Assembly: GCA_012837715.1 (NCBI GenBank) | Contig: DUQR01000046.1 | Coordinates: forward strand, 1 to 39,780 | Length of the DNA stretch: 39,780 nt | Reading direction: 5' to 3' | Origin: Bacillota bacterium | GTDB lineage: Bacteria > Bacillota > UBA4882 > UBA10575 | Shown here: positions 3,426 through 37,201 of the stretch, piece after piece | Layout of the letters: each line of letters opens with the position of its first letter | Position numbering within the stretch: the first letter of the stretch is position 1 | Position numbers and translations under genes: made by a program | Notes under the pieces: generated by a model | What the model was told of the DNA's origin: nothing | Databases searched by the model: none | Seen by the model: only the letters and a program-made list of their open reading frames with translations

Positions 3426-3469
3426 TTTTTAACCTCCTGTAAACTGATAACCGTACCCGGGGTTTTGCG

Positions 3470-3497
3470 TTGTCTTAGCTTTAACAAGCCAAGACAA
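3470..3497 (-). other. Intercistronic hairpin between permease and GH35 gene
   Basis: TTGTCTT (3470-3476) and GCTT (3478-3481) pair with AAGC (3486-3489) and AAGACAA (3491-3497), with one A.C mismatch. There is no clear T-run, so RNA processing or partial attenuation before the last gene is more likely than termination. Confidence 0.4.
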
Positions 3498-3548
3498 AAG
3501 ATTGATAGTCTAAGAAATCCTTTTTCTTGATAACAACGTAAAAAGCTT

Positions 3549-4424: not shown

Positions 4425-4442
4425 AATCAACCCTCCTAAAAG

Positions 4443-5321: not shown

Positions 5322-5363
5322 CTGTCTTCCCCCTTGTAAAATTCTGGCTAAAAGCCGGATTGC

Positions 5364-5387
5364 TGGGCGAAGGGCATGCTTCGCCCA
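5364..5387 (-). other. Stable hairpin between binding protein and permease genes
   Basis: TGGGCGAAG (5364-5372) and CTTCGCCCA (5379-5387) form a perfect 9-bp stem with a six-base loop and no T-run. In this position, after the binding-protein gene, such hairpins commonly protect the upstream mRNA so that the binding protein is made in excess over the permeases. That role is inferred. Confidence 0.5.
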
Positions 5388-5426
5388 ACAATAAAGTCCA
5401 GGGTTTTTGGTGATTTGGAGTGAACT

Positions 5427-6647: not shown

Positions 6648-6674
6648 TTTCATCCCTCCATATGATTAATCCCG

Positions 6675-8285: not shown

Positions 8286-8343
8286 TTGATCGCCTCCTTA
8301 TTTTTATCATAAGTTTTGATCATAGCCATTAAACGGAATTCTC

Positions 8344-10713: not shown

Positions 10714-10736
10714 TCCTTGCACCTCTTTCTTCAAAA

Positions 10737-10748
10737 TTAACCGGTTAA
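10737..10748. promoter_or_regulatory. Operator O2, TTAACCGGTTAA
   Basis: A perfect 12-bp palindrome in the gap between the lacI-type gene and the GH94 gene, identical to the one at the repressor promoter. A central CpG in an A/T-flanked palindrome is the usual LacI-family operator form. Confidence 0.8.
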
Positions 10749-10762
10749 GTTCACAGTAAAAA

Positions 10763-10792
10763 ATTAAAGGGCTTGACAGGAGGAACGCTCAA
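10763..10792 (-). promoter_or_regulatory. Possible internal promoter for the GH94 gene
   Basis: On the minus strand TTGAGC (10792-10787), 18 bases, then TTTAAT (10768-10763) sit at the end of the repressor gene. Operator O2 would then lie just downstream of the transcription start. The match is only moderate. Confidence 0.35.
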
Positions 10793-11765
10793 CCAAACTA
10801 GTTTTTAAGACCACTCTCCGTTGGGCCGGTTTTTCTTTGTAGATGAGCTGAAAAATAATCTCCGTTGCCCGTTTGCCCATTTCTTCAATGGGTTGTTTGA
10901 TCGTGGATAGAGGCGGTTCAACCACAGAAGATGCTTCGATATCATCGCAGCCGATGATCGAAAGATCTTGAGGCACTTGGAGACCTACTGACCGCGCTGC
11001 CGAAAGAATACCAATCGCCATTTGGTCATTGGCGGCGAAAACGGCGGTAGGTTTATTTTGTAAACGTTGTAAGGTAAGGAATGCTTGATAACCCCCTTCA
11101 CGTTTAAAGTCGCCCTGGCAAACCAGGTCTTCCGAATAGGAGAGACCATGATCCTGGAGTGCTTGACGGTAACCGCGAAAGCGTAATAAACTATCATTTG
11201 AGCTTTGCGGCCCGCCCACAAAAGCAATACGTTTATGACCCAGCCTGATCAGGTGTTCGGTTGCTTTGTAACCTGCTTCAAAATTATCCACATTTACCGT
11301 ATAGATGGATTTGTCCTCGAACGTCGAGTCGATCAAAACAAAGGGTATCTTCCGTTTTTTAAGGTTAACAATATAATCCAGGTCCAAAAAATAAGTCATC
11401 AGAATGATCCCATCGACCCGCCCAGTGGTAAACAGATCTACCATTTCCCGTTCCTTTTCGGGAAGGGCATGGGTGGTGCAGAGGTTAAGGGTAAAATTAT
11501 ATAAATTGGCAGTTTCCTCCACCCCGCGGACCACTTGGACGTAAAAATGGTCGCTAATATCCGGGATAATTAACCCTAACATCTCGGTGGATTTTCCGGC
11601 CAAGCCACGGGCAACGGTACTGGGATGGTAGTTCATTTCCTTCATGATTTTAAGGATTTTCTGCCGTGTTTCTTCGCTAACCCCTGGTTTATTGTTGATA
11701 ACATAAGAGACAGTTGCCTTTGTCACATTGGCGGCTTTGGCAATATCACTAATGGTTACTGGCAA
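10764..11765 (-). CDS. LacI-family transcriptional repressor of the sugar operon
   Basis: 333 residues. The helix-turn-helix VTISDIAKAANVTKATVSYV at residues 3-22 and the hinge helix HPSTVARGLAG precede a periplasmic-binding-protein-like effector domain (LGLIIPDISDHFY, GRVDGIILM, RIAFVGGP, TAVFAANDQMAIG, STIKQPIEEMG). TTG at 11765 is chosen because GGAGGGTGAT is directly upstream; an earlier TTG at 11780 lies before that site. It is first in the leftward operon and its own promoter carries the operator, so autoregulation and induction by a sugar are expected. CcpA-like global function is unlikely given the local operators. Confidence 0.92.
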   Translation of the reverse strand: MPVTISDIAKAANVTKATVSYVINNKPGVSEETRQKILKIMKEMNYHPSTVARGLAGKSTEMLGLIIPDISDHFYVQVVRGVEETANLYNFTLNLCTTHALPEKEREMVDLFTTGRVDGIILMTYFLDLDYIVNLKKRKIPFVLIDSTFEDKSIYTVNVDNFEAGYKATEHLIRLGHKRIAFVGGPQSSNDSLLRFRGYRQALQDHGLSYSEDLVCQGDFKREGGYQAFLTLQRLQNKPTAVFAANDQMAIGILSAARSVGLQVPQDLSIIGCDDIEASSVVEPPLSTIKQPIEEMGKRATEIIFQLIYKEKPAQRRVVLKTSLVERSSCQAL

Positions 11766-11781
11766 ATAATCACCCTCCAAC

Positions 11782-11793
11782 TTAACCGGTTAA
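11782..11793. promoter_or_regulatory. Operator O1, TTAACCGGTTAA
   Basis: The perfect palindrome overlaps the predicted transcription start of the lacI-type gene and abuts its ribosome binding site. Binding here would block initiation of the whole operon. Confidence 0.85.
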
Positions 11794-11797
11794 ATTA

Positions 11798-11826
11798 ATT
11801 ATATACACTAGTAATGACTTTGTCAA
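11798..11826 (-). promoter_or_regulatory. Consensus sigma-A promoter of the sugar operon
   Basis: On the minus strand TTGACA (11826-11821), exactly 17 bases, then TATAAT (11803-11798). Both hexamers are perfect. Such a strong promoter under operator O1 fits tight repression and high induction. Confidence 0.9.
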
Positions 11827-11890
11827 TTTCTTATTGTTGACGGTAAAATAGACCACTAAGCGACCTCCGTTATATTCTAAGTAGATGAGA

Positions 11891-11906
11891 ATATAATATA
11901 TAGTGT
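11891..11906. promoter_or_regulatory. NrdR-box-like motif 1
   Basis: ATATAATATATAGTGT matches 14 of 16 positions of the published NrdR consensus acaCwAtATaTwGtgt. It lies in a 350-base gap between the lacI-type gene and tRNA-His, with no ribonucleotide reductase gene in view. A 21-codon frame (ATG at about 11931, no ribosome site) lies between the two boxes and is probably chance. Confidence 0.5.
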
Positions 11907-11996
11907 TCACACCAAAAAGATGAAGGAAAAAGCGGCCTTGCCCCAAAAGCAATACGCAAGAAGCTTTTTAGGGTGTAATCAATAGTAAGGATTCTA

Positions 11997-12012
11997 GCAC
12001 AATATATAGTGT
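11997..12012. promoter_or_regulatory. NrdR-box-like motif 2
   Basis: GCACAATATATAGTGT matches 15 of 16 positions of the NrdR consensus. It lies 106 bases from motif 1, a larger spacing than the roughly three helical turns usual for paired NrdR boxes. The remaining gap up to the tRNA promoter shows nothing else I can identify. Confidence 0.55.
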
Positions 12013-12082
12013 TTGACTAAAAGTAGGCTGTCAAAATATTGTATTAGAATTGCTAAATCGGAAAAAGCCCGAAAGAAAGATA

Positions 12083-12111
12083 TTGACGAATCAACGGTGA
12101 TGTGTTATTAT
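12083..12111 (+). promoter_or_regulatory. Promoter of tRNA-His
   Basis: TTGACG (12083-12088), 17 bases, then TATTAT (12106-12111). The predicted start is a few bases before the tRNA. Confidence 0.75.
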
Positions 12112-12125
12112 ACTATTTGCGAATG

Positions 12126-12202
12126 GTGGGCGTAGCTCAGCTGGTTAGAGCGCCAGGTTGTGGCCCTGGAGGTCGAGGGTTCAAATCCCTTCGCTCACCC
12201 CA
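12126..12202 (+). tRNA. tRNA-His (anticodon GTG)
   Basis: The acceptor stem GTGGGCG/CGCTCAC, D-arm TAGCTCAG...GAGC, anticodon stem CCAGG/CCTGG with loop TTGTGGC (anticodon GTG), and T-arm GAGGGTTCAAATCCCTT are all present. The 3' CCA is encoded. G at 12125 can pair with C73 as the extra 5' G-1 that histidyl-tRNA synthetase needs. It is a single gene with its own promoter and terminator. Confidence 0.98.
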
Positions 12203-12217
12203 ACAGCGATGATTATG

Positions 12218-12238
12218 AGGGCAAATTAGCCCTTTTTT
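12218..12238 (+). terminator. Terminator after tRNA-His
   Basis: AGGGC (12218-12222) pairs with GCCCT (12229-12233) around a six-base loop, followed by six T. Confidence 0.85.
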
Positions 12239-12293
12239 ATTTTAATTTTTTGGAAAAGATACCCCTGTAGGCATTAAATTATTCTGCCATGAA

Positions 12294-12593
12294 GTGGGTG
12301 AAAACTTGAACTGGAAAGTGTTCTTTCTGGCTTTATGTACGATCTTCCTGGCCGAACTAGGCGACAAGACCCAATTAGCTGTTTTTTCTTTGGTTTCGCA
12401 GTCCCGGGCTCCCTGGGAAGTTTTTCTTGGCGCTTCGTTGGGCTTGGCTTTAGTCACCTTAATAGGTGTGCTCTTCGGTGGGGTGCTGACCAAATATATT
12501 CCCCCCATATATATGCGCTTGGGCGCCGCTTTTCTCTTTATTGGGATCGGAGTTTATACTCTGTGGAAAGTCTGGATGGAAATGGGCAAATAA
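12294..12593 (+). CDS. GDT1/UPF0016 family cation transporter, half-size
   Basis: 99 residues with three hydrophobic segments. The family motif E-x-G-D-K-[TS] is present as ELGDKTQLA at residues 21-29. Full members carry two such units; this one has a single copy, as in some bacteria where half-size subunits pair. Members export Mn2+ or Ca2+. The GTG start at 12294 has no good ribosome site; TTG at 12306 with GGGTGA just upstream is an alternative. No second half is seen nearby. Confidence 0.85.
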   Translation: MGENLNWKVFFLALCTIFLAELGDKTQLAVFSLVSQSRAPWEVFLGASLGLALVTLIGVLFGGVLTKYIPPIYMRLGAAFLFIGIGVYTLWKVWMEMGK

Positions 12594-12623
12594 ACCTCTG
12601 CCGGCCATGAGGGAGGGGATGAA

Positions 12624-13001
12624 ATGACCAAAGGGGATCGCTGGTTATTGTTACTCATCATTACAATAGGCCTTTCCTTACTGGCCTGGCGAACCTGGAG
12701 TTTTCCCTCATCCCAACGGCAGGTTCGGATTTTTCGGGATGGGGAACTGATCTCCAGTTTTTATTTACAAGATAAGGAGAGCCGTACAGAACAGATCAAG
12801 CTGGACGGCGGGGTTGCGACCTTGGAAGTTCAGGGCGGCGCAGTCCGTTTGGCTCCGAACAGCGCTCATTACTGTCCCCAGCGGATCTGTGTGCAAACCG
12901 GATGGATTAAACAACCGGGGGAATCGATTATTTGTGCCCCTAATAAACTGGTTGTTCGGATTGAAACTATGGAGGACGGGATCGATGCGCTCAGTCGATA
13001 A
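12624..13001 (+). CDS. NusG domain II-containing protein
   Basis: 125 residues: an N-terminal membrane anchor or signal (WLLLLIITIGLSLLAW), then the NusG_II fold with RIFRDGELI, VATLEVQGGAVRL, the conserved cysteine-containing YCPQRICVQTGWI and an ICAPNKLVVRI ending. In Clostridia such proteins are exported, usually with a small membrane transporter or lipid-modification genes. Here the start codon of the downstream methyltransferase lies inside its last codons (17-base overlap), so the two are translationally coupled. A GAGGGAGGGGATGAA ribosome site precedes the ATG. Function unknown. Confidence 0.85.
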   Translation: MTKGDRWLLLLIITIGLSLLAWRTWSFPSSQRQVRIFRDGELISSFYLQDKESRTEQIKLDGGVATLEVQGGAVRLAPNSAHYCPQRICVQTGWIKQPGESIICAPNKLVVRIETMEDGIDALSR

Positions 13002-26075: not shown

Positions 26076-26648
26076 ATGGGACCCAAGGTTAAATTCACCA
26101 AGGAACAGATTATCGATACAGCTTTTAAAATAGCTCAGACAGAGGGAATCGACAGTATAACTATGAGAAAAATCGCAGAAAAAATGGGCAGTTCAGTTGC
26201 ACCCATCTACGTAAATTTTAAAAACGTTGATGAACTGAAGGAAGCTTTAATGGAAAGGATTATTAGTGTTAGCCGGCAGATTTTAAAGGAGGAAAGTACC
26301 GGTAACCCCTTCCACGATATAGGAATCGCAAGTCTTAGATTTGCTGTGGAATATAGCGTTATTTTTAGAGATTTAGTAATAAAAAGTGGCAAATACATGC
26401 AAGGCTATGATGAAAAAATGATGCCGGCGTTAATTGAAGAGATGCAAAAGGATCCTGCGCTGAACGGGTTCACCGTCGAGGAGTTAAAAACAATCTTACT
26501 TAAAATGAGGATATTTCAAGTAGGGCTTTCGGTGCTGGCTGCCAACAGCTTACTGCCTAAAGAGTACACCAACCAAGATATGATAGATATCTTATCAAGT
26601 ACCGCTGATGATGTAATAATGTCAGCGAAAATGAGGAGAGGATTATGA
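26076..26648 (+). CDS. TetR/AcrR family transcriptional regulator
   Basis: 190 residues. The N-terminal helix-turn-helix is FTKEQIIDTAFKIAQTEGID.ITMRKIAEKMGSSVAPIYVNFKN (8-50). The C-terminal ligand domain is divergent. The ATG has AAGGATGGTGATG upstream. Its stop overlaps the next start as ATGA, so it is translationally coupled to the CPBP gene. It is expected to bind the two palindromes at 26019-26060 and repress its own operon. The pair is noticeably more A/T-rich than most neighbours. Confidence 0.93.
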   Translation: MGPKVKFTKEQIIDTAFKIAQTEGIDSITMRKIAEKMGSSVAPIYVNFKNVDELKEALMERIISVSRQILKEESTGNPFHDIGIASLRFAVEYSVIFRDLVIKSGKYMQGYDEKMMPALIEEMQKDPALNGFTVEELKTILLKMRIFQVGLSVLAANSLLPKEYTNQDMIDILSSTADDVIMSAKMRRGL

Positions 26649-27514
26649 TGACTAAAAAAACCTTTCGTAATATTGGGATTTTTATTTTTTTTGTTATCAT
26701 AAGCGGCTGGATAGGAGTTCTTGTGGATTCAGTTCTTATTGCCCAGCCTGAAGGTGATTCACTTGGTATGGGAATATGGCTGGTATTGCCCCTGCTGACC
26801 GCTTTTATAATCATCATTTTTTCCAAGGTAAGCCGGAAGGATATTGGCTTAAAGCCGAAGATCAAAGGCAATATGAAATGGTACTTGGCCTCTGCCCTGA
26901 TTTTCCCTGTGGTTACGGCAATTATGCTGCTAATCGGCGCGGTAACCAATTGGATAGACCTGTCCGCATTTAATCTCAAATCATTTATCATAGTTTTTTG
27001 TAGTACCTTGTTGGTTAATTTTATTATAAATATCTTCGAGGAAACCGCTTGGCGTGGTTATTTAACTTCCCAGTTAGTCAATTTAGATCTTAATGACCTG
27101 AAACTGTATCTTGTTGTCGCTTGTGTGTGGGCCCTGTGGCATCTCCCGTATTACCTGGTGTTTTTACCAGAGGCGGATCTTAGGGCAGTCATGCCTGTCA
27201 GCCGGGCTATTTATGTCGTTGTTGCCTTCACAACATTTATATCTTGGACGGTAATGTTCACAGAGCTTTTTAGGGTAACCAAATCGGTATGGCCATGTGT
27301 TATTTTACATACCGTAGAGGATTCGCTGATAAATCCTTTAGTAATATCAGGTTATATCAGTATCGCAGCCGGAAAAGAAATCCTCATTTCACCAATCAAT
27401 GGAATAATCACCTCCATTCTATACCTAGCTGTTGGAATCGGAATAAGAGCTTATAGAAAGAAAAAATATCCTGCAAATTTTGTGCCACCATCGATGTGGC
27501 GGAAGGAGTCTTAA
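26645..27514 (+). CDS. CPBP-family intramembrane protease
   Basis: 289 residues, about eight membrane segments. The CPBP (Abi) motifs are present: E132-E133-x3-R137 in EETAWRG, H166 in WHLPYYL and H in ILHTVEDS. These residues form the glutamic-type protease site seen in Rce1. Coupled to the TetR gene by ATGA overlap and followed by a small membrane-protein frame. Bacterial members are linked to bacteriocin immunity and peptide processing; the target here is unknown. Confidence 0.9.
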   Translation: MMTKKTFRNIGIFIFFVIISGWIGVLVDSVLIAQPEGDSLGMGIWLVLPLLTAFIIIIFSKVSRKDIGLKPKIKGNMKWYLASALIFPVVTAIMLLIGAVTNWIDLSAFNLKSFIIVFCSTLLVNFIINIFEETAWRGYLTSQLVNLDLNDLKLYLVVACVWALWHLPYYLVFLPEADLRAVMPVSRAIYVVVAFTTFISWTVMFTELFRVTKSVWPCVILHTVEDSLINPLVISGYISIAAGKEILISPINGIITSILYLAVGIGIRAYRKKKYPANFVPPSMWRKES

Positions 27515-27515
27515 C

Positions 27516-27640
27516 ATGAGTCAAGGGTATAGGAATGAACGTGATTACGCCGAGCCTGGCTTTATTTTGGTATTGCGGCAGTTGTATACTTTGTAAGTTC
27601 ATTGTTAATTATAAAATACCGCAATATGCCAAGGAAGTGA
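27516..27640 (+). pseudogene. Small membrane protein with an apparent one-base frameshift
   Basis: ATG at 27516 has GGAAGGAG eight bases upstream and follows the CPBP stop by one base. It encodes MSQGYRNERDYAEP and then, after a one-base shift at GAGCCTGG (about 27555), WLYFGIAAVVYFVSSLLIIK plus YRNMPRK and a stop at 27640. Without the shift the frame stops after 26 codons. The repaired product is 41 residues with one membrane helix, a plausible third member of the TetR-CPBP operon. Confidence 0.55.
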
Positions 27641-27989
27641 AATTCAGACTTATCCCCGGTATATGGTAAAAAATTAAAGATTGACAAGGGGATGGTTCCT
27701 TTATCTTTGTATGCAGGCGGTTGTTTGTAATGCTCCAATTTCGGCTAGCGAATTATTTCGTCTCCCGTTGTTTACGCAGGGGACGATTTTTTTATTTAAA
27801 GGATATATGGTTTTTTGTCGCTGCAGGTTATATGGGCTTGGGTTCAAGCCGGATTATTCTACAAAATTTGGCATCAGGCAAGGAAAAGGGGAGGCGGCAA
27901 CGAATCAGTTGTTATTCCACCGGAACAGATTCCCCGGACAGATGAGGAAGGACGGTTCCAACGGGTGAAAAGACACAGGAAGGAGGCAT
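27641..27989. other. Gap with overlapping frames but no supported gene
   Basis: Three short forward frames overlap here. One encodes a possible membrane stretch (LSLQVIWAWVQAGLFYKIWH, from about 27815) followed by a charged tail, but none has a good ribosome site. It may be the broken 5' part of the NHL-repeat gene that follows. Confidence 0.4.
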
Positions 27990-28680
27990 ATCCTTTCAAA
28001 CACGGGGCTCAACCAGATCCTTGGGCTAGACCTCAAAAATGGCAAGGCGGATGTTCTCATAGATTTGAACAAACATGGGGTGGATTCAAAAAGGTCAAAA
28101 CAGTGGCCGGAAATGGCAAAAGCGGCTATACTGGCGACGGGGGGCACCCTCTATCCGCAGCATTCGGGAGCAAAAAAAGTGGAAAATCTGATGGTCCATG
28201 GGCTTTCTGTATTGATGAAGAAAACAACATCTATATTGGAGACACGCAAAACCATGTGGTAAGGTATGCTCGACCGGAAGAGCAATACTTTGCAGACTGT
28301 TGCGGGAGGAGTAGAGTATAAGGTTAAGTTAAGAAACAGTCGTACGATCAGAAAACGTTATGAACTAATGCTTCCATCAATATGCTGGATGGATTATTGC
28401 CAAGGGATGCTCTACATCACCGACATGATTGGGGATTTGATTGTCCTAGTCAAGAGTTAAGACAGAAAAATAGTCCAAATGGACGATTGGACGATGCGCC
28501 ACGCGAAAACCCGCTCATGTTTGTGACACAATCGGTGGCATAGGCGTACCTCCGGAAGAAATCCATGAAAATGTGGTTCTTGCTCCCTGGTGGGAACCAT
28601 CTACCTTGCCGGATTTGGGGAAAGCCGATTTTTTGAATGAATCGGATTATTCGGCAGTGAAAGTATGGAGGGTATCACTT
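27990..28680 (+). pseudogene. Decayed NHL-repeat protein gene
   Basis: NHL-repeat features are spread over different frames: NTGLNQILGLDLKNGKADVL in one, then TVAGNGKSGYTGDGG...IYIGDTQNHVVR in a second, MLDRKSNTLQTVAGG and MLYITDMIGDLIVLVK in a third, and after two more shifts NGRLDDAPRENPLMF and DTIGGIGVPPEEIHENVV. At least four one-base shifts are needed: near 28085 (an A-run), 28264, 28456 and 28513. The flanking genes are intact, so decay is more likely than random error. NHL repeats form beta-propellers for protein or sugar binding. The tail segment is not recognised. Confidence 0.7.
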
Positions 28681-29444
28681 TGTCAAAGGTTGAAGAGAAA
28701 CTGGCCAAGTCATTGACGGCGGAGACCACGGAGCTCATCCCTTATCTGCCCTATCTATTGCAGGATTTATGGGAGCTTGGTTCATCGCCCCGGGATATGC
28801 TGGAGTTGATTAGAAAACACATTCATGTGTCGGCGGAAACCAAGATCCTTGATTTGGCCTGCGGCAAGGGGGCGGTAAGTGTTAACCTGGCTAAGGAACT
28901 TGGCTGCATGGTCCGGGGGATTGATCTCATTCCTGAATTTATTGATTTTGCGCGGAAAAAAGCTATAGAATACGGGGTTGAGGCTTTATGTGAATTTATA
29001 GTGGGAGATATCAACGAGGCGGTCAATGCGGAGCGGGATTATGATCTGGTAGTTCTTGGGGCTGTTGGCGTTGTGCTCGGAACTCCGGAAGAAACCATCA
29101 GGAAGCTAAAGCAGACAATAAAACCGGAGGGGTATATTCTGATCGATGACGCTTATGGTAAGAAAGGTGTTGGGGACGGTTATTGCTCAAGAGAAGAGTG
29201 GCTTTTAATTTTGGAAAAAATGAAAGTCCGGCTGATCGCAGAGAAGATTGTTGAAGAGGATGAACTAATTGACCTTAATCGTGAACAACAAGGGTTGATC
29301 CGAAAAAGAGCCAATGAACTTATGAAGAAGTACCCGGAAAAAGCCAACTTGTTTGGGGATTATATCCGAAGCCAACAGGCGGAGTGCGATCTACTGGAGA
29401 ATGATGTTATCGGGGTCACCATGCTTATCCAAAAGATGAAGTAA
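28680..29444 (+). CDS. Class I SAM-dependent methyltransferase
   Basis: 254 residues from TTG at 28680, chosen because GGAGGG lies seven bases upstream; the ATG at 28665 forms part of that site. SAM motif ILDLACGKGAVSVNLAKELG at about 56-75, then GIDLIPEFIDFARKKA, DYDLVVLGAVG and IKPEGYILIDDAYG. The C-terminal helical part (ELIDLNREQQGLIRKRANEL...DYIRSQQAECDLLEND) resembles small-molecule methyltransferases. It lies 17 bases before an MFS transporter gene, suggesting a two-gene unit. Substrate unknown. Confidence 0.88.
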   Translation: MSKVEEKLAKSLTAETTELIPYLPYLLQDLWELGSSPRDMLELIRKHIHVSAETKILDLACGKGAVSVNLAKELGCMVRGIDLIPEFIDFARKKAIEYGVEALCEFIVGDINEAVNAERDYDLVVLGAVGVVLGTPEETIRKLKQTIKPEGYILIDDAYGKKGVGDGYCSREEWLLILEKMKVRLIAEKIVEEDELIDLNREQQGLIRKRANELMKKYPEKANLFGDYIRSQQAECDLLENDVIGVTMLIQKMK

Positions 29445-29461
29445 AAAAAGGAGTATTGCTT

Positions 29462-30634
29462 ATGTATTCGTTGTTGTTGGTCCTGATCTACCTGGCCTTT
29501 ATCAGTCTGGGTTTACCGGATGCCCTTCTAGGCTCGGCCTGGCCTTTCATGTATCCCCTGCTGAAGGTGCCTGTATCTTATGCCGGCGTGCTTTCCATGA
29601 TTATTGCCGGAGGGACCATCATTTCGAGCCTAAACACCAGCCGGGTAGTTAGCCGGTTCGGCACCGGTCTTGTTACGGCGGTTAGCGTTTTGCTGACCGC
29701 AGTGGCGCTCCTGGGGTTCTCTGTTTCTAGCGCTTTTTGGATGCTTTGCCTTTGGGCCATTCCCTATGGCCTTGGCGCCGGCTCCGTGGATGCGGCTTTG
29801 AATAATTTTGTGGCGCTTTATTATGCTTCGAAGCACATGAGCTGGCTGCATTGTTTTTGGGGCGTGGGCGTTTCGATCGGACCCTATATTATGAGTTACA
29901 GTTTGACAATGAGCAATAGTTGGGAAAGGGGTTATGCCCTCGTCGGCCTTCTTCAAATTATTTTGACAGGGCTTCTTTTTCTCAGTTTGCCGCTCTGGAG
30001 AAAGCAGGCCCAAGCGAAGCGAGCAAGTCAAAGGGAGACCCCTAAAGCTTTGAAAATCCATGAGGCATTGCGAATAAAAGGGGTTAAGCAGGTGTTGGTG
30101 GCCTTTTTCGGTTATTGTGCTCTCGAGACCACGACCGGTCTCTGGGCCAGCAGCTATTTGGTCTTGCAACGGGGGGTTACGGTTGAAGCGGCAGCTAGAT
30201 GGGCTTCTTTATTCTATTTAGGTATTACGCTTGGACGCTTTTTGAACGGTTTTGTTACCGACCGACTGGGTAACCGTAAGATGATCCGGATCGGCCTGGC
30301 GATCATTGCCATGGGGTTATTGGCGGTGATGCTGCCTGTGCCGACTGGTCTTTTACCTTTGGTGGGTTTGGTTTTGATTGGTCTGGGCTGCGCGCCGATC
30401 TATCCCTGCATCATCCATGAGACGCCCAGGAATTTTGGGGCAGAGAATTCGCAAGCAATCATTGGTATTCAAATGGCCAGCGCTTATGTGGGATCAACAT
30501 TTATGCCGCCTCTTTTTGGTCTGTTGGTCAATTATATATTAATTGCCTTATATCCGTTTTATTTGAGTCTGTTTCTGGTTTTAATGGTTGTGATGACCGA
30601 AAGACTTAATCGTCTTGTCACCAGTGAAATATAG
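29462..30634 (+). CDS. MFS transporter, FucP-like
   Basis: 390 residues, about twelve membrane helices with a basic central loop (WRKQAQAKRASQRETPKALK). The first helix reads LIYLAFISLGLPDALLGSAWP, the second half has TLGRFLNGFVTDRLGNRKMI, the MFS motif A equivalent. The pattern is that of the fucose/sugar permease branch found in Firmicutes. ATG at 29462 has AGGAG eight bases upstream; a TTG two codons earlier is possible. Paired with the preceding methyltransferase. Cargo unknown. Confidence 0.9.
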   Translation: MYSLLLVLIYLAFISLGLPDALLGSAWPFMYPLLKVPVSYAGVLSMIIAGGTIISSLNTSRVVSRFGTGLVTAVSVLLTAVALLGFSVSSAFWMLCLWAIPYGLGAGSVDAALNNFVALYYASKHMSWLHCFWGVGVSIGPYIMSYSLTMSNSWERGYALVGLLQIILTGLLFLSLPLWRKQAQAKRASQRETPKALKIHEALRIKGVKQVLVAFFGYCALETTTGLWASSYLVLQRGVTVEAAARWASLFYLGITLGRFLNGFVTDRLGNRKMIRIGLAIIAMGLLAVMLPVPTGLLPLVGLVLIGLGCAPIYPCIIHETPRNFGAENSQAIIGIQMASAYVGSTFMPPLFGLLVNYILIALYPFYLSLFLVLMVVMTERLNRLVTSEI

Positions 30635-30732
30635 GTTTAGGCGCTGTTTATTAAAAGACGATCGTCAAAATAAAGAACAAGGGTTACAGGGAGTGGGAAC
30701 GGACCCCCCGCTTTGTGGAGTGGGCTAGTTGT

Positions 30733-30761
30733 GATCCACCGGCACAAGCGAAGGGTGGATC
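30733..30761 (+). other. Hairpin upstream of the oxidoreductase operon
   Basis: GATCCACC (30733-30740) pairs perfectly with GGTGGATC (30754-30761) around a 13-base loop, without a T-run. It lies in the 180-base gap before the GTG at 30817 and could be a leader structure or an operator. Confidence 0.4.
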
Positions 30762-30816
30762 CCCGTTAGATTAACATGTCCGTCGTAAACGAAAAGCTGG
30801 AAAGGGGGAAGCGAAG

Positions 30817-32145
30817 GTGAGCTTTAAATTTCGTTACCGGAGTCCGGAAGAGACTGCGCAAGCCGCTACTACCTTGGGTTTGTCGATGGGGTTTAGTACC
30901 GATTATCAAAGGTTGGGGGAAGGTTTAACCTTAGGGCAGCGGACTATCCCTAACCGCCTGGTTGTCCAGCCCATGGAAGGATTTGACGGTGTAAACCAAG
31001 GAGAACCGGGTGAATTAACCTTCCGCCGTTATTTGCGCTATGCCAAGGGGGGCGCCGGGATAATCTGGTTTGAAGCTACGGCAATCCTGCCGGAAGCCCG
31101 TACCAATCCGCAACAATTGGTGCTCAACAGCGAAACCGTGGATGCCTTTGCTCGACTGGTAGACGCGACGAAGGAGGCAGCTTGGGCCGAGTTCCGACAT
31201 GAGCCTTTCTGTATCTTACAGCTTACCCACTCGGGACGGTTCAGTAAACCGGCAGGTCAACGCCAACCGATCATTGCTGTCCACGACCGGGTCTTTGATG
31301 CCGTCGTTGGAGTGGATGCTGCTTATCCGGTTCTGACCGACGAGGAGCTGGAATGGATTAGAGATACCTTTGGGGAAGCCAGCCGCCTAGCTTACCAAGC
31401 CGGTTTTGACGGGGTAGATATTAAAGCCTGCCACCGTTACCTATTATCGGAGCTTTTGGCGGCGAAGGAGAGGACCGGTTTGTATGGCGGCAGTTATGAA
31501 CGGCGTACCGGTTTACTTAAGGAGATCGTGGCTTTGGTGAAAAATTCTCTCCCCACCCTTACTGTGGCGGTGCGTTTGAACGCGACCGATCTTGTAGACA
31601 CGGCCAATAGCTGGGGGGTAAGTCCGGAGCATCCCGGCCGGCCGGATCTGGGCGAACCATTACGGCTGGTTACGGACCTGGCTGAGCTGGGGGTGGGCTT
31701 GCTCAACATCACCGCGGGAACCCCTTATTATAATCCCCATGTGAACAGGCCTTATGATCAACCGGTGAAAAACGGGTACGCCGCTCCGGAACATCCTTTA
31801 CAAGGGGTTGACCGGCTCTTTAATTTAGCCGCCGCGATTCAAACCCACTTACCGGCGGTACCGGTCGTGGGTAGCGGTTACAGCTGGTTACGGCAGTTCG
31901 GGGGCGCCGCTGCGGCCTATAACCTAAGCCACGGCCGCCATCAGTTGGCCGGGTTTGGTCGCCAGGCCTTCGCCTATCCCGGTTTTGCCCGGGATCTACT
32001 GAGCGGCGAGGGGATGCGGCCCGAAAAAACCTGTATCACCTGTAGTAAATGTTCCCAGTTAATGCAGGTTGGCTCCTCTACGGGGTGCGTCGTCAGGGAT
32101 GCCCGGGTTTACGCCCCTATTTTCCAAAGGGCTGCTCAGGTGTAG
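30817..32145 (+). CDS. NADH:flavin oxidoreductase, Old Yellow Enzyme family
   Basis: 442 residues. The FMN TIM barrel shows LTLGQRTIPNRLVVQPMEGFDG, QLTHSGRFSKPAG, AYQAGFDGVDIKACHRYLLSELL, VAVRLNATD and VPVVGSGYSW. The C-terminus CITCSKCSQ...GC has the cysteine spacing of the [4Fe-4S] subgroup (2,4-dienoyl-CoA reductase-like) but lacks the second NAD domain. Usual HxxHGYL is here CHRYLL. GTG start with AAAGGGGGAAG upstream. First gene of an operon with a zinc alcohol dehydrogenase, a small protein and a Gfo/Idh/MocA dehydrogenase. Substrate unknown. Confidence 0.9.
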   Translation: MSFKFRYRSPEETAQAATTLGLSMGFSTDYQRLGEGLTLGQRTIPNRLVVQPMEGFDGVNQGEPGELTFRRYLRYAKGGAGIIWFEATAILPEARTNPQQLVLNSETVDAFARLVDATKEAAWAEFRHEPFCILQLTHSGRFSKPAGQRQPIIAVHDRVFDAVVGVDAAYPVLTDEELEWIRDTFGEASRLAYQAGFDGVDIKACHRYLLSELLAAKERTGLYGGSYERRTGLLKEIVALVKNSLPTLTVAVRLNATDLVDTANSWGVSPEHPGRPDLGEPLRLVTDLAELGVGLLNITAGTPYYNPHVNRPYDQPVKNGYAAPEHPLQGVDRLFNLAAAIQTHLPAVPVVGSGYSWLRQFGGAAAAYNLSHGRHQLAGFGRQAFAYPGFARDLLSGEGMRPEKTCITCSKCSQLMQVGSSTGCVVRDARVYAPIFQRAAQV

Positions 32146-32172
32146 TGAGTTTGCTCTGAAGGAGGAGAGCTG

Positions 32173-33285
32173 ATGAAAAGTTTGGCGATGGTGTTAACGG
32201 CCTTTGGGCGGAAGCTGGAAGCACGGGAGATCGAGATCCCGCCGCTCGAGGAGGGGCAGATCCTGGTGAAAATCACCGCCGCCGGGGTCTGTGGTTCCGA
32301 TGTGCATATGTATAAAGGGAATGATCCCCGGACGCCGCTCCCCATGATCTTGGGGCATGAAGGCGTTGGCGAAATAGTCGAGCTGCGAGGAAAAAGGTTT
32401 ACCGTGGAGGGGGAAGAATTAAGAGCCGGGGACGCGATCCTCTGGAACCGTGGGGTTTCCTGCGGTCACTGCTATTTCTGCGCCGTGGCCGGAACACCGG
32501 CCTTATGTCCGGAACGATGGGTGTACGGAATCACCAGGCCCTGCACCGAGTGGCCTTATCTCAATGGTTGTTACGCCGAATACATTATCCTTTCCGCCGA
32601 TACGGATCTCTTCAAATTACCCCCCGCCCTCGACCCGGCCGTCGTCGTGCCGGTCTCTTGTTCCGGCGCGACCGCCGCCCATTGTTTTGATTACATCCAA
32701 CCCCGGATCGGCGATACGGTTTTAATCCAAGGGCCCGGACCGGTGGGGATTTTTGCCACTTATTTTGCGGCTTTACATGGAGCCAAAACGATTATTATGA
32801 TCGGCGGTACCGACCGCCGTTTAGCGATCGCCAAAGAATTTGGGGTGACCCACACCCTCAACCGGAAAACCACTTCCATCGAGGACCGCCGTGAGATCAT
32901 TCTCCAGCTTACCCATGGCCGGGGCGTGGACTATGCCATTGAAGCCGTGGGCACGCCTGCGGCGGTGAAAGAGGGGGTCGCTTTGGTCCGGACCGGCGGC
33001 GTTTATTTATCGGTTGGTTTCGGTGATCCCAATGGCCGAGTGGAGCTGGACTGTTTCTTCGATTTAGGCCGGAAAAACCTGACCTATCAAGGGGTGTGGG
33101 TCAGTGCCACCCGGCATACCAGCATTGCGCTCCAGAGTGTCTTGAAAAACCCCTCCCTCTTTGCAACGCTGGTTGACCGGCGGTTACCGCTCACTGAGGC
33201 CAATTTGGCCTTGGATTTAATGGCACAGAAAGAGACCGTAAAAACGGTTCTGTTGCCCGCCGCTGGTGGAGACGGTTCTGAATAG
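32173..33285 (+). CDS. Zinc-dependent medium-chain alcohol/polyol dehydrogenase
   Basis: 370 residues. Catalytic zinc ligands in GVCGSDVH and GHEGVGEI; structural zinc cysteines in CGHCYFCAVAGTPALC; NAD-binding GPGPVGIFATYFAALHGA. The structural-zinc loop is longer than in classical ADHs and resembles the sugar/polyol and phosphonate-pathway branch. ATG at 32173 with GGAGGAGAG upstream, 28 bases after the flavoprotein. Likely oxidises a hydroxyl of the same unknown compound handled by its neighbours. Confidence 0.92.
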   Translation: MKSLAMVLTAFGRKLEAREIEIPPLEEGQILVKITAAGVCGSDVHMYKGNDPRTPLPMILGHEGVGEIVELRGKRFTVEGEELRAGDAILWNRGVSCGHCYFCAVAGTPALCPERWVYGITRPCTEWPYLNGCYAEYIILSADTDLFKLPPALDPAVVVPVSCSGATAAHCFDYIQPRIGDTVLIQGPGPVGIFATYFAALHGAKTIIMIGGTDRRLAIAKEFGVTHTLNRKTTSIEDRREIILQLTHGRGVDYAIEAVGTPAAVKEGVALVRTGGVYLSVGFGDPNGRVELDCFFDLGRKNLTYQGVWVSATRHTSIALQSVLKNPSLFATLVDRRLPLTEANLALDLMAQKETVKTVLLPAAGGDGSE

Positions 33286-33355
33286 GAAGGTTTTTATTTC
33301 ACTACAGTTTGAAATAAAGGTTATTGCAGTGGGACTAAAGCTTAGGGAGGAAGCC

Positions 33356-33606
33356 GTGGTTCCTACCTGATCCTTGAGAGCCAAGGAGAACCCGTTGAAG
33401 GCTTGGATGACCGGTGGCGTTTCCATCCCGAGCGGCCTGTTCTACGCCAATATACGCTGGAGTATGCTTTTAACGGGGGCCTACAGCACAAGCTGGGTAC
33501 CGGTGCGGCCGATCCCGGCCGATCATTTTGGTTTGAAAAGGTCTGGCAGGAATACCAAGGAAAAAAGATCTTTACCAACGAGCCGGAAAAGCAGAGCGGG
33601 AGGTGA
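33356..33606 (+). pseudogene. Small protein in the oxidoreductase operon, apparent frameshift near the start
   Basis: GTG at 33356 after AGGGAGGAAG begins V-P but stops after four codons. One base shift at TTCCTACC (33359-33364), as if CCC had become CC, opens YLILESQGEPVEGLDDRWRF followed by HPERPVLRQYTLEYAFNGGLQHK and on to the stop at 33606. The repaired protein has about 83 residues, no membrane segment, many aromatic and charged residues. It sits five bases before the Gfo/Idh gene. Family not recognised. A later TTG/ATG start within the open frame at 33403 would give 67 residues but has no ribosome site. Confidence 0.5.
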
Positions 33607-33613
33607 TTTCTTG

Positions 33614-34813
33614 ATGGGAGAACCGCTGACCATTGTCCTGGTGGGCGCCGGGGGCTACGGCAACTTTTATGTGGAGGCCATGCTAGAGGCGGAGCAACGG
33701 GATTTTCGGGTGGTGGGGGTGGTTGAGCCTAATCCTGCCGGCTGCCGGCGGCTGGATGATCTAATGGACAAAAACATCCCTTTTTACCACACTTTAGAAG
33801 ATTTTTACGCCGGGCGCCGGGCAGACCTGGCGATTATTTCCTCGCCGTTTCAGTTTCATGCTTCCCAGATCATCGCTGCGGTTAACGCCGGCAGTCATGT
33901 GCTTTGTGAAAAACCCTTATGTGTCACGGTGGAAGAGGGAAAAGCAATCATTGCCGCCCGGAAAAAAACCAGCAAACTTGTGGCCATCGGGTACCAGTGG
34001 TCTTTTAGCAGGGCTATACAGGAGTTGAAAAAGGAGATCATCAGCGGTCGGTTGGGTCGGCCCCGTCGACTGAAAACCATGGCTTTCTGGCCGCGGGATT
34101 TCGCCTATTACCGGCGGAACGACTGGGCCGGGCGGATCAAGGATCGCCAAGGCCGTTGGGTGTTGGATAGTGTGGTCAGTAATGCCACCGCCCATTTTCT
34201 ACATAATATGTTGTTTCTGCTCGGACCCAATTTCGGGGAAAGTGCCTTTCCCGCCAGCCTCACGGCGGAATTATACCGGGCGAATGCCATCGAAAACTAC
34301 GATACGGCAGCCCTCCGTCTCCAGACAGCCTGCGGGACCGAAGTCATGTTTTATGCCACCCATGCCACCTTGGAAAAAGTAGAACCAGTTTTTTTCTTTG
34401 AGTTTGAAAAGGCCGTCGTTAATTATAACCAGAATGAGGACAGGAAGATTAAAGCCACCTTTACGGACGGTAAGACAAAAGTCTACGGCGACCCCTTTGC
34501 TGGGGAGGAGAATAAACTCTGGGCAACCATTGCGGCGCTTAGGGAAGGGAAGCCTGTTCCTTGCGGGCCGGAAGCCGCGATGCCCCAAGTGGTCTGTGTC
34601 AACGGGATGCAAGAAGTGGGGGAGATAACCCCGTTTCCGCCCGGGTTAATCCGTTACCGGACCGGCGACCAAGGAGAAAAGACCGGGGTTTATGTGGCGG
34701 GGTTGGCCCAAGATTTATGCGGCTGTTATGAACAATGGAAGTTACCAGCCGAAGCCGGGGTAGCCTGGGCCCGACCGGGGAGAACCAAGTATTTCGCGGT
34801 GGACCTGGTGTGA
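33614..34813 (+). CDS. Gfo/Idh/MocA family oxidoreductase
   Basis: 399 residues. N-terminal Rossmann domain IVLVGAGGYGNFYVEAML (about 7-24), then NAGSHVLCEKPLCVTVEEG with the catalytic EKP lysine, and the alpha/beta substrate domain (GYQWSFSRAIQELKKEIISGRLGRPR). Enzymes of this family oxidise or reduce sugars and inositols with NAD(P). ATG at 33614; a TTG one codon earlier also fits the GGGAGG site. The C-terminal 70 residues (YVAGLAQDLCGCYEQ...KYFAVDL) are an extension seen in a subset of the family. Last gene of the oxidoreductase operon. Confidence 0.9.
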   Translation: MGEPLTIVLVGAGGYGNFYVEAMLEAEQRDFRVVGVVEPNPAGCRRLDDLMDKNIPFYHTLEDFYAGRRADLAIISSPFQFHASQIIAAVNAGSHVLCEKPLCVTVEEGKAIIAARKKTSKLVAIGYQWSFSRAIQELKKEIISGRLGRPRRLKTMAFWPRDFAYYRRNDWAGRIKDRQGRWVLDSVVSNATAHFLHNMLFLLGPNFGESAFPASLTAELYRANAIENYDTAALRLQTACGTEVMFYATHATLEKVEPVFFFEFEKAVVNYNQNEDRKIKATFTDGKTKVYGDPFAGEENKLWATIAALREGKPVPCGPEAAMPQVVCVNGMQEVGEITPFPPGLIRYRTGDQGEKTGVYVAGLAQDLCGCYEQWKLPAEAGVAWARPGRTKYFAVDLV

Positions 34814-34824
34814 AGGAGGAAAGA

Positions 34825-34896
34825 TTGACTATTATTTGGGCCGGTCTTTGTTGGGGCAAGTCTAACGCTGGCCGTACAGATGAAAAAGGGAAATAG
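34825..34896 (+). CDS. Possible 23-residue leader peptide
   Basis: TTG at 34825 follows AAGGAGGAAAGA, an excellent ribosome site only a few bases after the Gfo/Idh stop. It encodes MTIIWAGLCWGKSNAGRTDE and three more residues, and its stop at 34896 overlaps the ribosome site of the ABC gene. It may couple translation to the ABC genes or be a remnant. No homology recognised. Confidence 0.3.
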   Translation: MTIIWAGLCWGKSNAGRTDEKGK

Positions 34897-34907
34897 GAGG
34901 GAAGAAT

Positions 34908-35825
34908 TTGGTTGAATTAAAAAAGGTCTCGAAAAGTTTTGCCAATGTGCAAGCGGTTAACAACCTCTCCTTTACCGCGCGGGAAGGAGAGATCTTCGGC
35001 TTATTAGGGCCAAACGGCGCCGGGAAATCCACGACTATCCGCATGATCCTTGGTATTTACCTTCCCGACTCCGGGACCATTTATTTTAATGGCAAACGCT
35101 TGGTGGAAAAAGACAAGAACCGCATCGGCTATCTTCCCGAAGAACGGGGCTTATATAAACGGTTGAAAGTCAACGATGCTCTCCTTTATATGGCCGAATT
35201 GAAAGGAAAAAAAAGAAAAGAGACCCAACCGCGTATCGACTACCTATTGGAAGAGCTGGATCTGCTTAGTTGGAAAGAGCGTAAAGTAGAAGAGCTTTCC
35301 AAGGGGATGAGCCAGAAAATCCAGTTTATTTCCACCATTGCCCATGATCCGGAGATTATTTTCCTTGATGAACCTTTCTCTGGCCTTGACCCGGTCAGTT
35401 CGGACCAGCTCTTAGATTTAATTCTCGCGCTTAAAAAAGAAGGGAAAACTGTCATCCTGAGCACCCATATTATGGACCAGGCAGAACGGTTGTGTGATCG
35501 CATTCTGCTGATTAACCGCGGTTGCGAGGTGCTTTCCGGAAGCTTGGAAGAGATCAAGGCCCAATATGGCCGGCGAACCATTAAGGTCGAGTTTGATGGG
35601 GACGGGGATTTTATCTCCTCTTTGCCGCAAGCGGCTTCCGTACGCTCCTATCCCCGGTGGGCGGAGATTGATTTAAAACCGGGCATCGATAGCAATGAGC
35701 TTCTTTCCATCCTTATGGAGCGGGTTTCGATCCAAAGATTTGAATTGAGCGCTCCGACGCTCCATAGCATTTTTATCCGGGAGATTGGAAATCCGGAAGA
35801 TAAAGGAGGGGAACCGGATGCATAA
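34908..35825 (+). CDS. ABC exporter ATPase, NatA type
   Basis: 305 residues. Walker A GPNGAGKST (about 34-42), signature LSKGMSQKIQ, Walker B IIFLDEP and switch STHIMDQAE. The C-terminal DUF4162-like domain is present. TTG start with GGAGGG upstream. The downstream permease begins eight bases before this stop, so the two are coupled. Together they resemble NatAB sodium/drug exporters. Confidence 0.93.
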   Translation: MVELKKVSKSFANVQAVNNLSFTAREGEIFGLLGPNGAGKSTTIRMILGIYLPDSGTIYFNGKRLVEKDKNRIGYLPEERGLYKRLKVNDALLYMAELKGKKRKETQPRIDYLLEELDLLSWKERKVEELSKGMSQKIQFISTIAHDPEIIFLDEPFSGLDPVSSDQLLDLILALKKEGKTVILSTHIMDQAERLCDRILLINRGCEVLSGSLEEIKAQYGRRTIKVEFDGDGDFISSLPQAASVRSYPRWAEIDLKPGIDSNELLSILMERVSIQRFELSAPTLHSIFIREIGNPEDKGGEPDA

Positions 35826-37041
35826 GGTTTTCACAATTATCAGGGAAGAATTTAAGATGACCGCTGCCAACCGCGCTTTTATTCTTTTAACAATCCTTGG
35901 TCCATTCTTAATTGGGGCGATTACAATCCTGCCTGGACTTTTAGCGAATAAAGCCTTAAATCCGGAAAAGGAGTATCAAATTGGCCTTTACGTGCAAGAC
36001 CAGAGCTTTGCCGCTGAACTCAGTGAACGGTTAAGAGAAGGGAAGATTATTCTCCGACACGGAGCAGATCTGGAAAGCTTGAAAAGCCAAGTGGTCAGCG
36101 GGGAACTGGAGGGTCTTTTGGTTATTCCCGCTCACTATATGGAAGAGCGAATATTTACCTATTATACTAAGCAAGGCGGTAATCTTTACGTCACCCAAGC
36201 GATTGAAGGGGTATTAGGGGGAATTATTGTCAGTAAACGCCTGGCCGAAGAGGGGTTGGATCCGGGGCGGATCGCTAGCCTTACCGCGCGACCTTCCCTG
36301 AAAACCATGACCATTGATCAGGAAGGAAAAGAAAAAAGCCAGGATGTGATGGAAGTTCTTTTAATCGCGCTTACATTTGTGATGATGATTTATATGACCG
36401 TTATCCTCTATGGACAATCGATTGGTCGTTCGGTTTTGATGGAGAAAACATCGAAGACAGTGGAGATTCTACTCTCGTCGGTCTCCCCGTCAGCGATTAT
36501 GTTCGGGAAAATTTTTGGCAAAGGGTGTGCCGCCATTCTCCAAAGCGGAATTTGGGTTTCGATGGCGATTTTTATCGTTAAGATTGTTGGTCCCCGGTTT
36601 GGGCTGGCCATTCCGGCTGCTTTGACGGTTAGTAATTTTCTCTATCTATTTTCCTTTTTTATCTTGGCCTTTTTCCTTTATGCCGCCATTTACGCCGCCC
36701 TTGGCGCCGCCGCCGAAGATGAGCAGCACCTAAACCAGTTGCTTTGGCCGGTTTTACTCTTTCTGATCGTTCCGATGGTCATGATCTCCGGCTTGATTTT
36801 TAATCCGGAAAGTAGTATTGCCATCTTTTTTTCGCTTTTCCCCTTTACTGCTCCGCTGGTCATGTTGATCCGGGTGCTCGTGGCGGCTCCTCCTTTCCTT
36901 GAGATTCTACTTTGCTACGGCTTAATAATCGCCACTATCGGAATTATTGTCCTTCTTTCTTCACGGATTTTCCGGATTGGGATCCTGATGACCGGGAAAA
37001 AGTTCAACTTTAAACAGATTCTTTCCTGGTTATGGCGATAA
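35818..37041 (+). CDS. ABC exporter permease, NatB type
   Basis: 407 residues. One N-terminal helix, a large extracytoplasmic domain (about 45-190), then five to six C-terminal helices with the GQSIGRSVLMEKTSKTVEILLSSVSP motif of ABC-2 permeases. ATG at 35818 with AAAGGAGGGG upstream, overlapping the ATPase stop. The ABC2_membrane_3 family exports Na+, peptides or drugs; the cargo is not determined. Confidence 0.92.
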   Translation: MHKVFTIIREEFKMTAANRAFILLTILGPFLIGAITILPGLLANKALNPEKEYQIGLYVQDQSFAAELSERLREGKIILRHGADLESLKSQVVSGELEGLLVIPAHYMEERIFTYYTKQGGNLYVTQAIEGVLGGIIVSKRLAEEGLDPGRIASLTARPSLKTMTIDQEGKEKSQDVMEVLLIALTFVMMIYMTVILYGQSIGRSVLMEKTSKTVEILLSSVSPSAIMFGKIFGKGCAAILQSGIWVSMAIFIVKIVGPRFGLAIPAALTVSNFLYLFSFFILAFFLYAAIYAALGAAAEDEQHLNQLLWPVLLFLIVPMVMISGLIFNPESSIAIFFSLFPFTAPLVMLIRVLVAAPPFLEILLCYGLIIATIGIIVLLSSRIFRIGILMTGKKFNFKQILSWLWR

Positions 37042-37136
37042 GATAGAACATGTTAAAGCAAAGGACAACGCGACAAGCCCGGATCAGGACGGTGGATGGA
37101 GCATAGGTTAGGGCCGTAGTTTGGCTGGGAAGGAAA

Positions 37137-37173
37137 AACGGATCAGGAAACCCTTGCGGTTTCTTGATCCGTT
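37137..37173 (-). terminator. Terminator between convergent permease and deacetylase genes
   Basis: AACGGATCA.GAAACC pairs with GGTTTC.TGATCCGTT (one G.T position). Minus-strand reading is followed by TTTTTCC, so it ends the deacetylase transcript; the rightward permease transcript would also meet it. Confidence 0.75.
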
Positions 37174-37201
37174 AAAAACGTAGGAGGGGATTTTTCTGTA
37201 A

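Follow-up and report, generated by a model that had tools for sequence, protein, structure and literature searches.

What pathway unites three closely spaced redox enzymes, and what is the short open reading frame (ORF) that lies among their genes? This question is raised by a 39,780 nt stretch of contig DUQR01000046.1 (GCA_012837715.1), hereafter the window, which comes from a 53-contig draft genome (98.68% complete) of a Bacillota bacterium, lineage UBA4882; UBA10575. The window encodes an iron-sulphur (Fe-S) flavoprotein of the Old Yellow Enzyme (OYE) type, a zinc-dependent dehydrogenase (ADH) and an oxidoreductase of the Gfo/Idh/MocA class (Gfo), which an earlier note had combined with an 83-residue unknown protein into a four-gene operon. 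These genes belong to a conserved redox module in which the Fe-S OYE is joined by a fumarate-reductase-like flavin adenine dinucleotide (FAD) flavoprotein, a 1vj0-type Zn dehydrogenase and a Gfo/Idh protein; in the nearest relatives, a gene for a LacI-type regulator comes first. Most of the flavoprotein gene has been lost from the window, and a complete paralogue is encoded on another contig. We favor, with moderate confidence, reading the locus as an eroded version of this module, which would serve hexuronate-type sugar-acid catabolism. Its features are listed below, where L047 denotes the locus of Peptococcaceae bacterium AS20ysBPTH_5, a relative with an intact operon.

30703-30733, + strand: probable remnant of the lacI 3′ end, 31 bases, 25 identical to L047 (DNA match)
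30817-32145, + strand: Fe-S OYE-type flavoprotein, 442 aa, GTG start, short form (Pfam PF00724, 87.3 bits, gathering cut-off 27)
31423-31440, + strand: OYE active-site stretch Lys203-Ala-Cys-His206-Arg-Tyr208, aligned with HAAHGY of YqjM
32032-32088, + strand: OYE Fe-S cysteines C406-x2-C409-x2-C412-x11-C424, invariant in 33/33 aligned relatives
32173-33285, + strand: Zn-dependent medium-chain dehydrogenase, 370 aa, 1vj0 type (Pfam ADH_N, ADH_zinc_N)
33346-33606, + strand: remnant of the gene for a fumarate-reductase-like FAD flavoprotein, 3′-terminal 86 codons (alignment to full-length relatives)
33614-34813, + strand: Gfo/Idh/MocA oxidoreductase, 399 aa, long C-terminal part (Pfam PF01408, 76.1 bits)

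A truncated flavoprotein gene in the window

The supposed 83-residue protein turned out to be the C-terminus of a flavoprotein of approximately 670 residues. Its frame, open from 33346 to the stop codon at 33604-33606, contains neither an ATG nor a GTG start, the first start codon being TTG 33403 (67 aa), and it had no family match in profile scans and no convincing match in the PDB (best E 0.56). In a sample of 299 genomes of the same phylum, the stub had matches in 10, its own among them. In the other genomes these always fell at the end of frames of 658-706 codons; the second match in its own genome, 48% identical, lies in a 675-codon frame on contig C2. When the stub was aligned to the C-termini of full flavoproteins, the score with the L047 protein was 203 (0/1000 shuffles). 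Two stub-related full proteins were scanned and matched FAD_binding_2 (61.8 and 57.5 bits; cut-off 20.4), and the full flavoproteins sit near aspartate oxidase and fumarate reductase. The model of the L047 flavoprotein (pLDDT 83.3) matched fumarate reductase over 544 residues (Z 42.2, 3.7 Å). We therefore rejected the small protein as a gene product of its own, and folding this remnant together with its neighbors, as had been proposed, would be meaningless. Of the four-gene operon, the three enzyme genes stand, but the fourth is a stub, and related operons contain one member more. What looks like a small unknown protein can thus be the leftover end of a key partner enzyme.

The gene order LacI-OYE-ADH-flavoprotein-Gfo is intact in L047. 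The same order is found in L033, a locus with N stretches from a genome of the same genus as the window genome (G001), where the flavoprotein is split over two frames. Judged from the intact relatives, the window copy lacks about 590 of 670 flavoprotein codons. Flavoprotein homology in another frame upstream of 33346, which a DNA alignment had suggested, was tested and dropped (449/2000 shuffles for protein; 1281 and 968/2000 for DNA), so that the upstream edge of the loss can be placed only between the ADH stop codon (33285) and this position. The lacI regulator has probably been lost from the window copy as well: its remnant scored 38 against the L047 DNA (0/2000 shuffles), the comparison with L033 at the same place gave 45/2000 shuffles, a comparison at the protein level gave 9/2000, and no lacI orthologue was found in the window genome, where the best match is 35% identical. 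A remnant of the second Gfo-like gene of L047 behind 34813 found no support (1123/2000 shuffles; no orthologue, best match 29%). Farther upstream, overlapping short frames at 27815-28460 encode NHL-repeat-like peptides in different reading frames, as judged by eye; this is possibly a decayed gene, so that the upstream region may be eroding too.

The missing part of the flavoprotein gene might instead reflect an assembly error, for which the fragmentation of the draft and the split, N-containing flavoprotein of L033 could be adduced. This explanation has very little probability in our view, as a search of the draft with the L047 flavoprotein gave, apart from the C2 paralogue and the remnant, a single weak match and no orphan 5′ piece. 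Furthermore, the stub is 53.8% identical to L047 (42/78) versus 68-77% for the neighboring genes, though the flavoprotein tail is variable anyway (55% between L047 and C2). The comparison of the stub with L033 was not used because it covers only 14 codons and N stretches.

Are the three remaining genes then a dead relic of the loss of flavoprotein and regulator? Two separate losses, the lack of a regulator orthologue and the presence of this OYE in only one of seven other genomes of the genus (G001) would fit this explanation. However, the OYE, ADH and Gfo frames are intact with ribosome-binding-like sites, and the partners lie on different contigs in six other genomes too. The dN/dS values of the three genes against L033 were 0.089, 0.077 and 0.131 (dS 1.5-2.3, rough) and the window lineage evolves no faster than other lineages for these enzymes, although a recent loss would look alike. 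We consider a dead relic very unlikely. The complete flavoprotein on contig C2 is 67% identical to that of L047, and the three remaining enzymes would depend on it in trans, or are being lost. In the C2 locus (L041 1163-10823), this flavoprotein is encoded beside a long OYE, an ADH, an IlvD-type dehydratase and a cupin, with a TRAP transporter assigned by eye. It forms a second sugar-acid-like locus with the same flavoprotein partner.

The proteins scanned around the operon are MFS, methyltransferase, CAAX-protease-like and ABC transporter proteins. A pattern scan of 28400-37200 gave 12 terminator-like sites (12.7 in shuffles) and 11 promoter-like sites (7.0 in shuffles, sd 2.7); these counts thus say little on transcript ends. 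On the minus strand, 1014-11780 carries an operon with GH35/42-type, ABC transporter, GH94 and LacI-like genes, which is typical of oligosaccharide use.

The module and its neighbors in other genomes

The partnership of OYE and flavoprotein is not confined to the window. Of the 299 genomes, 18 encode the OYE and 23 the flavoprotein, and 17 encode the two together, with Fisher p values of 8e-22 by genome and 1.6e-14 by genus (12/13 OYE genera), both inflated by kinship of the genomes. Ten of these pairs lie within 2.6 kb and seven on different contigs. The 23 flavoprotein matches comprise 12 of the full type (>1000 bits) and 11 variants (206-271 bits). The ADH is present in 17 of the genomes; the flavoprotein occurs in 11 of these, side by side with the ADH within approximately 1.1 kb in 10, all except the window genome.

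We then extended the comparison by using the OYE alignment to scan 84,980 species genomes, which gave at least 562 confirmed relatives, and 80 loci were kept, many of them short stretches of sequence. Neighbors were counted by tblastn, because ORF calling gave false long frames in G+C-rich loci; ORF maps placed the flavoprotein in 37 loci of a set that includes earlier loci and was not used for counts. The flavoprotein is near the OYE on the same strand in 32 of the 80 loci and in 24 of the 50 having at least 5 kb downstream. Other neighbors are short-chain dehydrogenases/reductases (SDR, 30 loci), Gfo (17), LacI (8), 2-keto-3-deoxy-6-phosphogluconate (KDPG) aldolase (8), TIM epimerase (7), 1vj0-type ADH (6) and proteins like 2-keto-3-deoxygluconate (KDG) kinase (6). 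The loci L158, L160 and L161 combine the flavoprotein variant, ADH and Gfo, but in the place of the OYE they encode a DHO_dh protein carrying a 4Fe-4S dicluster domain; the likeness of this protein to PreA is below the model cut-off (218 vs 335 bits in L160). The refutation that the earlier note had set for its proposal, no joint conservation in any other genome, therefore fails, with OYE-ADH-flavoprotein-Gfo in L047 and L033 and parts of the set recurring in loci from several phyla.

The neighbors also point to the substrate. Near the OYE in other genomes, we found tagaturonate reductase (656-658 bits; cut-off 359), mannonate dehydratase (526 bits; cut-off 191), glucuronate isomerase (627 bits; cut-off 387), a UxaA-like dehydratase (281-306 bits with the galactarate dehydratase model, below its cut-off of 731), KDPG aldolase and KDG-kinase-like proteins. 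When the same queries were applied throughout, at least one uronate/KDG gene was detected in 7/9 OYE regions of a separate genome set and in 12/80 loci, compared with 0/20 control stretches of 20 kb each from four of those genomes. In the one-contig genome G248, genes for OYE, Gfo, a TIM protein, flavoprotein, KDPG aldolase and a KDG-kinase-like protein are clustered; it is one of 11/30 OYE genomes in which both the KduI and the UxuA family were looked for and missed. Genes for glycan degradation adjoin the module as well, namely GH9 and GH10 (L054), GH28 (L117), a beta-glucuronidase (L160), a rhamnogalacturonan-lyase-like protein (L158) and GH39 with an acetyl xylan esterase (L161). These results suggest that the module acts in hexuronate-type sugar-acid catabolism ending at KDG or a neighboring intermediate, and it probably helps to break down acidic sugars of plant cell walls. 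Of the substrates put forward earlier, a sugar acid is thus best supported by neighbors elsewhere, and a cyclitol or plant glycoside less so.

Several observations weigh against this assignment. The proportion of 7/9 is biased upward, since L130-L132 belong to one genus and were chosen after uronate genes had been spotted nearby. The UxuB- and UxaC-like labels (L131; used as queries) and the TRAP, Tct and ROK labels were assigned by eye, and the KDG kinases score below model cut-offs. In the sequence covered, which is short for many loci, 68/80 show no uronate/KDG query gene and 48/80 no flavoprotein. None of UxaA/B, UxuA/B, UxaC, KduI or the KDG enzymes was among the nine window proteins scanned for families (26645-37041). 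G139 has the OYE without the flavoprotein, and six genomes have the flavoprotein without this OYE. Finally, the window Gfo is only ~31% identical to those of L043, L098, L117, L158, L160 and L161.

Cyclitol catabolism of the inositol type is an unlikely alternative that has some sequence likeness on its side. Here Gfo and Zn-ADH would oxidize the ring in turn, an epimerase of the IolO-like TIM type would act next, and its product would enter tagaturonate metabolism. IolG and IolM reportedly oxidize the inositol ring in turn in Thermotoga. The window ADH scored 127 bits with the IolM model and the Gfo scored 69 bits with the IolG model, neither of which reaches the cut-off; IolO-like TIM proteins occur in L035 and L043, and an IolB-type isomerase in L130. 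However, pectin, xylan and uronate genes adjoin the module elsewhere, TRAP- and Tct-like transporters (assigned by eye) point to an acid, and neither an OYE nor a fumarate-reductase-like protein is known to belong to the inositol pathway. The L130 protein (5755-6561; 223 bits, cut-off 205) is encoded within a cluster of tagaturonate reductase and UxaA-like genes and is perhaps an alternative uronate isomerase.

The glycosidases near the module in some genomes would also suit an oxidoreductive cleavage of glycosides, where Gfo would oxidize the glycoside to its 3-keto form, the aglycone would be removed by a lyase and OYE would reduce the resulting enone. In support, the window Gfo matches the glucuronide-3-dehydrogenase structure 8tdi (E 7.7e-08) and, weakly, glycoside 3-dehydrogenase models. 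We nevertheless think this quite improbable, as it leaves the KDG-type genes unexplained and no lyase or hydratase family was found among the window proteins scanned.

The OYE-SDR-flavoprotein order of many loci, such as L079 and L116 with all three classes, recalls yet another chemistry, the equol-like reductive dehydroxylation of a plant aglycone by an OYE, a ketoreductase and a succinate-dehydrogenase-like reductase in sequence. The same three protein classes occur in Slackia and Lactococcus, according to the part of the source available (PMC4381290). The neighbors in our loci are sugar-acid and glycan-degrading genes and no aglycone genes were seen, which makes us regard this pathway as highly unlikely. 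The window itself holds no such set, since there is no SDR in the run and the flavoprotein is broken.

Other associations were noted in these loci. A protein of the URO-D fold recurs next to ADH and flavoprotein (L133 7673-8722, L130 19060-19998, L132 7320-8468 and L162 4219-5250, the last assigned by BLAST only). The zinc motif of URO-D-fold methyltransferases is HxC, and six OYE-linked URO-D proteins (L133, L132, L130, L071, L037 and L035) have SGG at this position. Demethylation of 4-O-methylglucuronate, which such neighbors suggested, is a conceivable role that we do not claim, and the searched literature has no bearing on it. In the planctomycete locus L104, an OYE fused to a GltD-like domain (9998-12640; 881 aa) is followed by SDR, KDPG-aldolase-like, BNR_4, flavoprotein and KDG-kinase-like genes. 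L159 (8651-16688) carries flavoprotein and ADH beside a weakly IolB-like cupin without this OYE, and its further neighbors, assigned by eye, are enoyl-CoA-hydratase-, CoA-transferase- and MaoC-like genes and a TRAP transporter.

The enzymes and a possible reaction sequence

The Pfam matches of the OYE, ADH and Gfo all exceed the gathering score, and the earlier descriptions of the three enzymes hold: the OYE-like protein carries an Fe-S cysteine set (CxxCxxCx11C), the dehydrogenase a structural-zinc loop (CxxCxxCx8C) and the Gfo a C-terminal extension. In OYEs, an anchor pair His-x-x-His/Asn precedes the catalytic Tyr. The window OYE keeps the second His and the Tyr, and its first His is replaced by Lys203; Lys203, His206 and Tyr208 are unchanged in 33/33 aligned relatives. 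This replacement could suit a carboxylate or keto acid as ligand. The four-Cys site behind the barrel, typical of the Fe-S OYE subclass (DCR/TMADH/NCR), is present, and the C-terminal FAD/NAD(P)H domain of this subclass is missing, as the protein ends at residue 442. In 42 of the 80 loci, the OYE is continued by a GltD-like domain, an indication that its electrons come from NAD(P)H in these cases. The AlphaFold2 model of the window OYE (pLDDT 94.9) best matched 2-naphthoyl-CoA reductase (Z 44.3, 361 residues, 2.0 Å), followed by 8pun, trimethylamine dehydrogenase and others including dienoyl-CoA reductase, while Foldseek alone puts 8pun first; the match to Fe-S OYE enzymes reaches residue 432. 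A mycofactocin OYE (TIGR03997; 83.7 bits, cut-off 793.15) and a bile-acid OYE (BaiCD; 58.2 bits, cut-off 825) were both rejected with scores far below cut-off.

The ADH gene follows after 27 nt. Its product matched 1vj0 with an E value of 2.5e-110 (phmmer, 372 bits; next solved medium-chain dehydrogenase/reductase, 115 bits), residues 2-363 aligning to 17-379 with catalytic and structural Cys positions in register. We take 1vj0 to be Thermotoga TM0436, which is probably aldH, counting from the operon order and uxaR = TM0439. As far as the accessible part of PMC3750489 goes, the Thermotoga aldH-pelB-gnd-uxaRED-gntEK operon is controlled by UxaR, and aldH-pelB is more than 17-fold up on pectin. 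The closest solved relative of the window ADH thus probably belongs to the pectin/galacturonate regulon of Thermotoga.

The Gfo ORF called mechanically begins at TTG 33374, but the likely start is ATG 33614, seven bases past the preceding stop codon and downstream of GGGAGGTGA. Pfam covers only the first 254 of the 399 residues, and the protein exceeds the inositol- and UDP-GlcNAc-dehydrogenase models (302-343 positions). Its counterparts in L047 and L033 share 68-71% of its residues. The full flavoprotein retains one His and one Arg, and Gly replaces the other His of its relatives. The retained pair binds one carboxylate in these relatives, and the exchange suggests a monocarboxylate as the substrate.

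A reaction sequence can be sketched speculatively. The dehydrogenases would make a ketone on the sugar acid, and loss of water or alcohol would yield a conjugated C=C bond. OYE would reduce this bond with electrons passing through its Fe-S cluster; in proteins that continue into a GltD-like domain, NAD(P)H would supply them. The FAD protein would act on the C-C bond adjoining the carboxylate. The PreA-like replacement of OYE supports a C=C redox step. Of the reductive ring or enone step suggested earlier, a reductive C=C step appears plausible from this replacement and the Fe-S OYE fold.

Among the main polymers of plant cell walls are pectin and glucuronoxylan, and it is not settled what becomes of part of their acidic sugars in anaerobes. 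The module offers a concrete gene set for such a gap, present in several phyla and with two seemingly interchangeable Fe-S flavin mononucleotide (FMN) barrels. It is conceivable, though doubtful, that it represents a flavoenzyme route for hexuronic acids in several phyla, in which OYE or its PreA-like counterpart forms a near-obligate pair with the flavoprotein, often with 1vj0-type ADH, and feeds KDG. The literature searched on Old Yellow Enzymes or flavin oxidoreductases with sugar-acid catabolism contains no description of this module. In Caldicellulosiruptor, the conventional galacturonate steps after UxaC are missing, as stated in the accessible part of PMC8579813. If real, the route could fill these steps, provided that G226 and G296 belong to this genus, which is a guess.

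Comparison with known systems

The window OYE shares its fold with 2-naphthoyl-CoA reductase, trimethylamine dehydrogenase and 2,4-dienoyl-CoA reductase over 361-365 residues including the Cys region (Z 44.3, 40.9 and 40.5), but differs from these Fe-S OYEs in lacking the C-terminal FAD/NAD(P)H domain and in having Lys203 for the first His of HxxH. The window ADH resembles 1vj0 over its full length, whereas the partner genes differ. The PreA-like/FAD/ADH/Gfo run of L158, L160 and L161 has the same flavoprotein superfamily (as a short variant), ADH (57% identical in L160) and Gfo class, but OYE is replaced and the Gfo is 31% identical to that of the window. The equol kit of daidzein, dihydrodaidzein and tetrahydrodaidzein reductases, as far as its partial source describes it, combines OYE-family, reductase and succinate-dehydrogenase-like proteins as the module does; in contrast, the kit has an SDR where the window has Zn-ADH and Gfo, and its substrate setting is different. 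The conventional hexuronate pathway (UxaC, UxaB, UxaA, UxuB, UxuA, KduI, KdgK and KdgA) has no place for OYE or flavoprotein, but its genes adjoin the module in other genomes.

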